From Bacillota bacterium (GTDB lineage Bacteria; Bacillota; Sulfobacillia; Sulfobacillales; JAIMBI01), in assembly GCA_021846505.1 (NCBI GenBank), contig JAJZWV010000004.1:68074-106330 (forward strand): a DNA stretch of 38,257 nt, read 5' to 3'. The notes beneath the pieces are model-generated. The model saw nothing but the letters and a program-made list of their open reading frames with translations. It had not been told where the DNA came from and did no database searches. Of this stretch, positions 31,518 to 33,732 are shown piece by piece (position 1 is the first letter of the stretch; the number at the start of each line of letters is the position of its first letter). Made by a program: the position numbers and the translations under genes.

Positions 31518-32030
31518 GTGCAGCTGGCGGAGGTGTATCGGCGACTGGAGGCGGGATCCTACCGACTGACACCTCAGCGGCACCTGCTGTTGCGCACGCT
31601 GGCGGGGCATGGCGACACACCCCTGTCTGCCGAGGAGCTGCAGGGGCAAGCGGAGGCTGAGCACCGGCAGCGGGTGGGGCTGGCCACGGTGTACCGCACG
31701 CTGGATCTGCTGGTGTCGCTGAACGTCGTGGCGCGCGTGGAGCCGGGAGAGCAGGACCCCTCCCCGGCGCAGGACGGGTCGGCGCGCTTCGTCTGGGCGG
31801 GGGAACACGGCACCGGCCAGCCTACACGCGTGTGCGTGCGCTGTGGAGAAGTGGATGTGATGGCCAGCGACTGGCTGGCGGAGATGTCGCGCCGCCTGAG
31901 AGACGAGCAGGGATTCGAGGTGGTGGACCAGGAAGTGCGGTTGTACGGCGTGTGCCAGCCGTGCCGTGCACGCCACGCAGTGCGGGGGCGGCTGGCCGAC
32001 GCCGACGACCTCCCGGCCGCCCCCGCGTGA
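31518..32030 (+). CDS. Fur-family transcriptional regulator with atypical metal site
   Basis: A 170-residue Fur/PerR/Zur-family protein, starting at GTG 31518 behind an AAGGTGGTG site. The winged helix contains YRLTPQRHLLLRTL (15-28) and the recognition helix ATVYRTLDLLVSLNVV (56-71). Two CXXC pairs (C106/C109 and C146/C149) should bind structural zinc. The HHxH motif that normally precedes the first pair is missing and reads GTGQPTRVCVRC (98-109); H97 is the only nearby histidine. Regulatory metal sensing may differ from Fur, PerR and Zur. It has its own promoter and lies 79 nt upstream of the TGA-containing ArsC/Spx-like gene, with no terminator seen between them. Confidence 0.87.
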   Translation: MQLAEVYRRLEAGSYRLTPQRHLLLRTLAGHGDTPLSAEELQGQAEAEHRQRVGLATVYRTLDLLVSLNVVARVEPGEQDPSPAQDGSARFVWAGEHGTGQPTRVCVRCGEVDVMASDWLAEMSRRLRDEQGFEVVDQEVRLYGVCQPCRARHAVRGRLADADDLPAAPA

Positions 32031-32109
32031 TGGGTCGCAAGCCTCACTGGCGGTCAGGCCGCGCCTGAATGCAGGAATGCAGGAACACTGGGAGCATAGG
32101 GGGATGGGC

Positions 32110-32466
32110 ATGATTCGGCTGTATCACTATCGGGGCTGAAGCACCTGCACCAACGCGAAGGCGTGGCTTTCGCAGGCGTTGGCGAAGATCCCTGACCACG
32201 AGGCCGTGGACGAGCGGGACCTGATTCGCCAGCCTCTGTCGGCGTCGGAAATACGGGAGCTGGCAGAGCGGGCGGGGGGACTTGAGGCGGTGCTGGCCAC
32301 GCGGAGTCCGGCGTATCGGGCGCGCGCGGCCGCCGTCCAGGACCAGGCCGGCTGGGTAGCGGCGATGGCTGAGGAGCCGCGGCTCATTCGGCGGCCCATC
32401 TTGGAGACCAGCCGCGGCATGGCCGTGGGATTTTCGGAAGTGAACTGGCAGCGGCTGTTGGGGTGA
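32110..32466 (+). CDS. ArsC/Spx-family protein with in-frame TGA at the CXXC motif, candidate selenoprotein
   Basis: The frame from ATG 32110 reads MIRLYHYRG, then TGA (32137-32139), then STCTNAKAWLSQ, and continues without other stops to TGA 32464-32466. Reading the first TGA as selenocysteine gives 118 residues, the normal ArsC/Spx length. The TGA falls exactly on residue 10, the first Cys of the family's CXXC (Cys10/Cys13 in Spx), giving U10-S-T-C13. Later family marks are present: ERDLIRQPLS (35-44), LATRSPAYR (62-70) and RRPIL (94-98). A stem-loop follows the TGA at SECIS-like distance. GGGAG and AGGGGG precede the start. Role: probably a thiol/selenol oxidoreductase or redox switch. Alternatives are a nonsense-mutated gene or sequencing error; a start downstream (TTG 32179) would remove the active site. 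Confidence 0.72.
32150..32182 (+). promoter_or_regulatory. SECIS-like stem-loop downstream of the in-frame TGA
   Basis: CCAAC (32150-32154) pairs with GTTGG (32178-32182) and GCGAA (32155-32159) with TTCGC (32169-32173), with an AGGC bulge on the 3' side. The 9-nt apical loop starts with GG at 32160, 20 nt after the TGA. Bacterial SECIS models, as I recall them, require a small apical loop with G in its first two positions some 16-37 nt after UGA; this fits. The pairing also lies within coding sequence, as in known bacterial cases. Confidence 0.6.
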
Positions 32467-32520
32467 ATCTGCGCAGCCCGCGGTGGAAAGGGTGCGGCCC
32501 GACCGCTTCTGCCACCTCGT

Positions 32521-32681: not shown

Positions 32682-32724
32682 TGAGGCCGTGGCAGAAACA
32701 GTGCAAGCGAGGGAGGTGCTGCGC

Positions 32725-33732
32725 ATGATGGTGGAACCGCGGCTAGCGCGCCCAGTGCTCCGGGACAAATTTGGGCGAGTAGTCCGCAAGCTGCGCATTT
32801 CCCTGACCGATCGGTGCAACTTCCGGTGCGTCTACTGCATGCCGGAGGATGCCACGTTTCTGCCGCACGAGGAGCTGCTGACCGCCGACGAGCTGGTCCG
32901 CGTCGCGGGGCTGTTTGCCGAGATGGGGGCGGACACCATTCGGCTCACGGGGGGCGAGCCGCTGATGCGGCCCGATGTGGCCGACATTACGCGGCGTCTG
33001 AAGCAGCTGCCGGGCGTGCACCGGGTGTCGATGACCACCAACGGGTTCATGCTGCCGCATCTGGCGCCCGCGCTGGTGGCGGCGGGCCTCGACGGCGTCA
33101 ACGTCAGCCTCGACACGCTGGACCCGGTGCGCTTTCAGGTGCTGGCGCGCCGCCGGTACCTGAGCCATGTGCTTGAGGGCATCCAGGCCGCCGAAGCCGC
33201 GGGGCTCACGCCCGTGAAAATCAATACCGTGGTGATGCGGGGGGTCAATGACGGGGAAATCGGCGAATTTCTGGGTTGGGCGCGCGACACGGGGCACGTG
33301 GTGCGCTTTATCGAGTTTATGCCGCTCGATGCGGACAACATTTGGCAGCGGCAGACCGTGGTGACGCTGGCAGAAGTCCTGGAGGTGGCGAGGGCCATCG
33401 GCCCGGTGGACGAGGTGAGCGAGGATAAAGCGAGCCCTGCGCGCCTATTTCGCTTTCGCGACGGGCGCGGCACCTTCGGCGTGATTGCATCGGTCTCTGA
33501 GCCGTTTTGCGCGGACTGTGACCGAGTGCGCCTGACGGCCGAGGGGCGCATCCGCAACTGCCTGTTTGCAACCGATGAAACAGACCTGCGGAGCCTGCTG
33601 CGGTCGGGGGCCAGCGACGATCAGCTGGTGGAGCGCATGCGGGGGGCCGTGGCGGACAAGTGGGCCGGCCACTTGATTGCGCAGCCCGGGTTTGTCAAGC
33701 CGGAGCGCACCATGCACCGGATTGGCGGCTGA
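32725..33732 (+). CDS. moaA: GTP 3',8-cyclase MoaA
   Basis: A radical-SAM enzyme of 335 residues from ATG 32725, six bases after GGGAGGTG; an in-frame GTG at 32689 would give 347. The radical-SAM cluster is C31-x3-C35-x2-C38 (TDRCNFRCVYCMP), the GGEPL motif lies near 86-90, and the C-terminal cluster is CADCDR then C after 13 residues (C-x2-C-x13-C). The protein ends in the double glycine tail needed for activity. MoaA with MoaC converts GTP to cyclic pyranopterin monophosphate, the first step of molybdenum cofactor synthesis. No other moa gene is in the window. The stop abuts the convergent gene (TGATCA). Confidence 0.95.
   Translation: MMVEPRLARPVLRDKFGRVVRKLRISLTDRCNFRCVYCMPEDATFLPHEELLTADELVRVAGLFAEMGADTIRLTGGEPLMRPDVADITRRLKQLPGVHRVSMTTNGFMLPHLAPALVAAGLDGVNVSLDTLDPVRFQVLARRRYLSHVLEGIQAAEAAGLTPVKINTVVMRGVNDGEIGEFLGWARDTGHVVRFIEFMPLDADNIWQRQTVVTLAEVLEVARAIGPVDEVSEDKASPARLFRFRDGRGTFGVIASVSEPFCADCDRVRLTAEGRIRNCLFATDETDLRSLLRSGASDDQLVERMRGAVADKWAGHLIAQPGFVKPERTMHRIGG

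Follow-up and report, generated by a model that had tools for sequence, protein, structure and literature searches.

A predicted ArsC/Spx-fold selenoprotein with a Fur-family partner gene, conserved in an order of Bacillota

The gene and its in-frame TGA codon

The window, by which we mean the whole 38,257-nucleotide stretch of DNA that was analysed, carries on its forward strand a frame of 118 codons and a terminal TGA (positions 32110-32466), in which a single internal TGA occupies codon 10 (32137-32139), while the terminal TGA (32464-32466) is read as a stop. It is preceded on the same strand by a gene for a Fur-family regulator (31518-32030) and followed by a moaA-like radical SAM gene (32689-33732; PF04055, PF06463); the latter is confined, among the flanks examined, to loci of the same family and does not extend across the order. 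Translation through the internal TGA gives MIRLYHYRG-U-STCTNAKAWLSQ...RRPILETSRGMAVGFSEVNWQRLLG, a protein with the motif U10-S-T-C13, whose residues 5-114 match the Pfam ArsC family (PF03960) with 47.8 bits against a gathering cut-off of 24. An earlier, sequence-only reading had proposed that an in-frame TGA here replaces the first Cys of the CXXC motif in an otherwise whole ArsC/Spx-like gene next to a Fur-family gene: its coordinates were all exact, the Pfam match supports the family identity and the neighbour indeed belongs to the Fur family. It had further foreseen that an automatic gene caller would start downstream at 32179 and lose the active site, and a mechanical caller did just that, choosing a TTG at 32179 and yielding a product of 95 residues. 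Because the true start precedes the TGA, standard annotation either overlooks the gene or cuts it short. No other ArsC/Spx-family gene was found in the window genome.

The protein is encoded by 36 of 42 genomes of the order, spanning 13 genera, with exactly one TGA in each; a Cys form was encountered in none of the 36. In all 30 loci that were read directly the TGA, and hence the U, falls at the same position of the alignment, which corresponds to the invariant Cys10 of Spx. Thus, the alignment proposed earlier as a check shows Cys at this position in Spx and a retained TGA in the sister genomes, which contain neither random stops nor frameshifts. Since independent genomes carry the identical TGA, a sequencing error is excluded as its source. 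Among four congeners, codons 1-9 show no nonsynonymous changes, although synonymous sites have changed at as many as 6 of 6.3, and a comparison of the part after the TGA between the window species and the other congeners gives a dN of about 0.22 and a dS of about 1.0-1.2. This purifying pattern both before and after the TGA implies readthrough translation under selection on both sides. That the TGA is instead a real stop or an artefact in a pseudogene, with only the 95-residue remnant from 32179 being made, would agree with the start chosen by the gene caller; however, the identical codon in 36 of 36 independent genomes, the two-sided selection and the covarying hairpin described below render this exceedingly improbable. 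We accordingly rejected a pseudogene and a sequencing error, as well as a global change of the genetic code, TGA being also used as the terminator.

Selenocysteine machinery and the SECIS hairpin

The window genome (3.58 Mb in 119 contigs, 96% complete) encodes the complete selenocysteine machinery for which a search had been suggested: a tRNA-Sec with a UCA anticodon (67.8 bits, above the curated cut-off), SelA (507.8 bits), SelB (319.7 bits over its first part, in an ORF of 674 residues) and SelD (354 bits). The SelD frame is itself broken by a TGA at SKSG-U-GCKLG, the SelD active site, which brings the number of independent Sec codons in this genome to two or more. This SelD (L018) is very probably a selenoprotein as well. 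Across the order, selA or selB is present in all 36 gene-bearing genomes, and the near-complete genomes G010 and G011, which are without the gene, are also devoid of tRNA-Sec, selA and selB. The exceptions are G005, a near-complete draft assembly in which the gene and selB were seen while tRNA-Sec and selA were not, and G007, where the machinery is present and the gene absent. We used selA and selB in these comparisons in place of a tRNA-Sec tally, which is approximate because some of the above-cut-off matches are tRNA-Sec-like tRNA-Cys.

These tRNA-Cys, with a GCA anticodon and a long variable arm, occur besides tRNA-Sec in several genomes of the order (L170-L173 and L175-L177, from G007, G036, G027, G028, G019, G038 and G009) and resemble the described selC* class of tRNA-Cys (PMC7609411); in the window genome there is no second tRNA-Sec match above the cut-off. 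Their existence in some members of the order could be taken to favour decoding of the UGA as Trp or Cys, via a code change or a suppressor, rather than as Sec, but those examined carry the GCA anticodon, reading UGC/UGU. Moreover, TGA terminates the window gene and the copies of its congeners, the UCA-anticodon tRNA found in the genome is the tRNA-Sec, and a SECIS is present, all of which make such decoding very improbable.

The candidate SECIS is a hairpin at 32155-32173 on the forward strand, GCGAAGGC-GUG-GCUUUCGC, with an 8-bp stem (5' arm 32155-32162, 3' arm 32166-32173) and a GUG loop (32163-32165), lying within the codons for A-K-A-W-L-S; its stem starts 15 nt and its loop G lies 23 nt after the TGA. 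Hence, of the GG-looped stem-loop previously predicted at the spacing of a bacterial SECIS, the spacing stands, whereas the apical loop is GUG. Throughout the order, the uninterrupted stem run beside the loop has a mean length of 6.3 pairs, whereas redrawing the synonymous codons gives 2.86 +/- 0.17, a null that draws on the codon usage of one window and is compared with related, non-independent sequences; Cys homologues, with a run of 1.8 that equals their own null, are missing the hairpin. The codon choice in the arms is correspondingly skewed: the Arg codons of the 5' arm are CGA in 20/22 cases as against 19/252 in sampled window genes, and in the 3' arm Leu is written as CTC or CTT in 29/30, CTG being dominant elsewhere. 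Pair counts give 19 cells with compensatory change against 5.8 after shuffling, none of 500 shuffles reaching as high, and this covariation signal vanishes when the arms are slid. RNAalifold, run unaided, recovered the six innermost pairs of this stem, and the same hairpin is found in several Sec forms beyond the order (e.g. L054, L060). The folding energy of the window hairpin as a single sequence is unremarkable (z = -1.14), and an Rfam scan of 32050-32480 gave no match; therefore, the SECIS call rests on comparison rather than on a library. From this comparative signal we conclude that the hairpin is a predicted bacterial SECIS, conserved by selection and with a G in its apical loop.

Every circumstance that the sequence-only reading had named as telling against a selenoprotein was looked for and none was encountered. 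Taken together, these observations indicate that 32110-32466 is almost certainly a genuine selenoprotein gene, in which UGA10 would be decoded as Sec by tRNA-Sec, SelA, SelB and SelD, as directed by the SECIS 15 nt downstream.

Family, fold and probable function

An AlphaFold model with Cys in place of Sec has a pLDDT of 95.9, and its closest matches among solved structures are YffB (Z 16.3) and Spx (Z 16.0), followed by ArsC (Z 13.4); Foldseek ranks Spx structures at the top (TM 0.83 to 3gfk). A separate profile for the structure database comprised order members only, with Spx rows excluded. In the model, Sec10 would occupy the N-terminal end of helix 1, the place of the nucleophilic Cys in relatives, and the protein has an invariant RP motif (R95-P96). 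It stays below the curated cut-offs of the Spx/MgsR, arsenate reductase and NF041106 families. The best NCBIfam match is Spx/MgsR (TIGR01617), with 55.2 against a cut-off of 75.05; the arsenate reductase family ArsC (TIGR00014) gives 26.8 bits against 106.05. Among the family models compared, those of the Spx subfamily score highest, and Sec takes the place of the first Cys.

The residues that are invariant in the order are Sec10, W19, R95-P96 and G107-F108. In contrast, the second position of the redox motif is variable: of the 30 relatives, 18 carry Cys there, 8 carry Ser and 4 carry Ala. The UXXC motif originally proposed is thus upheld at its first position in 30/30, but in 12/30 it is replaced by UXXS or UXXA; the window genus retains UXXC, but an Spx-type switch with two redox-active positions was not found as a shared property of the 30 relatives. 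Such a switch depends on the two residues together, whereas an enzyme of the ArsC/Grx type can do with the first alone. Hence, the loss of Cys13 against a background of strictly invariant residues argues against an Spx-type switch and for a thiol reductase with a Sec nucleophile, a reading which, taken alone, we consider probable from these conservation patterns. In such a small thiol reductase or redox relay, the attack would come from the selenolate of Sec10. Cys13 would then provide the resolving step in the window genus, and glutaredoxin, thioredoxin or a small thiol would do so in the members with Ser or Ala. As an overall explanation, a selenoprotein acting as a thiol reductase or relay is held with considerable confidence, a grading that applies mainly to the selenoprotein part.

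Two other functions might be envisaged for the same fold. One is a selenium-based transcription regulator like Spx/MgsR, which would bind the C-terminal domain of the RNA polymerase alpha subunit (alpha CTD) and use a Sec10-Cys13 selenenylsulfide as its redox switch. The top rank of Spx/MgsR among the NCBIfam families and of Spx structures in Foldseek point this way, and of the Spx positions that we take to be contacts for the alpha CTD, the equivalents of G52 and R92 are kept in 28/30 and 30/30 members, respectively. However, the R47 position is variable and K62 is changed to Pro in 28/30, the family score stays below its cut-off, the part beyond about residue 115 of Spx is missing, YffB fits equally well and the 12 members without Cys13 would have no intramolecular switch, leaving this function possible but doubtful. 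The other is a selenium-dependent arsenate reductase, which would be in keeping with the ArsC Pfam family, with the ArsC fold (Z 13) and with the known UxxS ArsC selenoproteins. Given the low TIGR00014 score, a conserved neighbour of the Fur family and no ars gene among the window genes examined, we regard it as unlikely. We rank each of these two functions below a thiol reductase in likelihood.

A tree computed with the Sec/Cys column masked unites the Sec forms of the order in one group (99/84). This group stands apart from the Cys forms and from the Sec forms of other Bacillota, of which there are at least three groups; the deep forks of the tree are weak because the sequence is short. Sec-containing ArsC/Spx-like genes are found in many other Bacillota families (L054, L057, L060, L061, L063, L064, L066, L068, L071, L073-L077). 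The intermixing of these non-order Sec forms with Cys forms in at least three tree groups suggests repeated exchange between Cys and Sec. A class-wide profile search recovered more candidate frames with TGA, and also stop-free candidates, in other families. Searches of named genomes with the window protein as the query found no relative, and an alignment search with a Cys-requiring pattern yielded Cys homologues only.

ArsC-type selenoproteins are already known as a kind. They were listed in 2006 (PMC1794560), and a 2008 ocean survey predicted 42 sequences of 'Arsenate reductase 2', assigned to cd03032 and with a UxxC motif, as bacterial selenoproteins (PMC2398784), in line with the marine metagenomic examples mentioned in the sequence-only reading. 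As cd03032 is the ArsC_Spx subfamily (PMC8755942), the suggestion of that reading that an Spx/MgsR-like form in a high-GC Bacillota lineage, next to a Fur-family gene, may be new overstated the novelty: an Spx-subfamily UxxC ArsC had been predicted in 2008. Arsenate-reductase-like selenoproteins of the UxxS and UxxC types are included in reviews from 2022 and 2026, with Spx unmentioned, and we found no direct link between Sec and Spx in the literature searched. Compared by description, the ocean-survey proteins resemble ours in having Sec at the first Cys of UxxC and probably in their Spx-subfamily domain; unlike those marine metagenome reads, the family described here is fixed in a Bacillota order (36/36), displays UxxC, UxxS and UxxA forms and lies behind a Fur-family gene. 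The 2006 proteins from Desulfotalea and Desulfuromonas, an ArsC-like protein and a distant ArsC homologue, also belong to the ArsC superfamily with Sec but come from other phyla, and the Symbiobacterium selenoproteins in that survey include no ArsC-like protein. The ArsC family (seleno)protein model NF041106 (ArsC_rel_Se_1) likewise describes ArsC-related UxxC selenoproteins, yet the window protein falls outside it (26.9 against a cut-off of 85). With Spx/MgsR our protein has in common the fold, the place of the CXXC motif and the RRPI and VGF/VGY motifs, but it differs in having Sec for Cys10, an unconserved second Cys and no C-terminal tail. YffB (PA3664, 1rw1), an ArsC-family member of comparable fold and length (114 residues), is a Pseudomonas Cys protein, in contrast to the Sec form with its SECIS and Fur-family partner. 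What appear undescribed in the literature searched are the order-wide fixation, the intragenic SECIS and the Fur-family coupling of this clade.

The Fur-family gene pair

In 28 of the 30 loci, the gene immediately upstream, in the same orientation, belongs to the Fur family. Counted up to the first residue of the alignment, the spacing ranges from an overlap of a few nucleotides to 38 nt, and in the window it is 79 nt; Sec forms beyond the order showed no upstream Fur-family gene in those tested. Co-transcription of the selenoprotein gene with this regulator is very probable, and the output of the former would therefore follow metal or redox status. The window genome has two additional Fur-family genes, and a search near the start of the upstream Fur-family gene revealed no Fur box, its best matches, with a mean of 8.5 mismatches, being no improvement on those in shuffles (8.7).

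The H-x-HHH metal cluster is present in 19 of the 28 upstream Fur-family proteins. In the other 9 it is lost while the CxxC...CxxC pair is kept; these are the window protein, in whose genus the His cluster is degenerate, and the upstream genes of L022-L026, L040, L044 and L049. Such a cluster-less neighbour may have lost the conventional mode of iron sensing.

In low-GC Gram-positive bacteria under disulfide stress, Spx has been linked to the Fur regulon and to the supply of iron (PMC12822559); by analogy, a role at the interface of redox and iron is plausible for the Fur-family/selenoprotein pair. A more specific proposal, which we offer tentatively and consider rather improbable, is that, across the order, the Sec protein of the Spx/ArsC fold serves the neighbouring Fur-family regulator as a dedicated redox partner, either reducing it, sensing on its behalf or acting with RNA polymerase, thereby coupling gene control to the selenium supply; in the window genus, the regulator without its His site may depend on this partner. 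More generally, the contrast between an invariant Sec and an often-replaced second Cys helps to tell enzyme-like from switch-like uses of the ArsC/Spx fold. Recognition of this gene, which standard annotation misses or truncates, would give a Bacillota order a conserved selenoprotein with a testable Fur-family partner.
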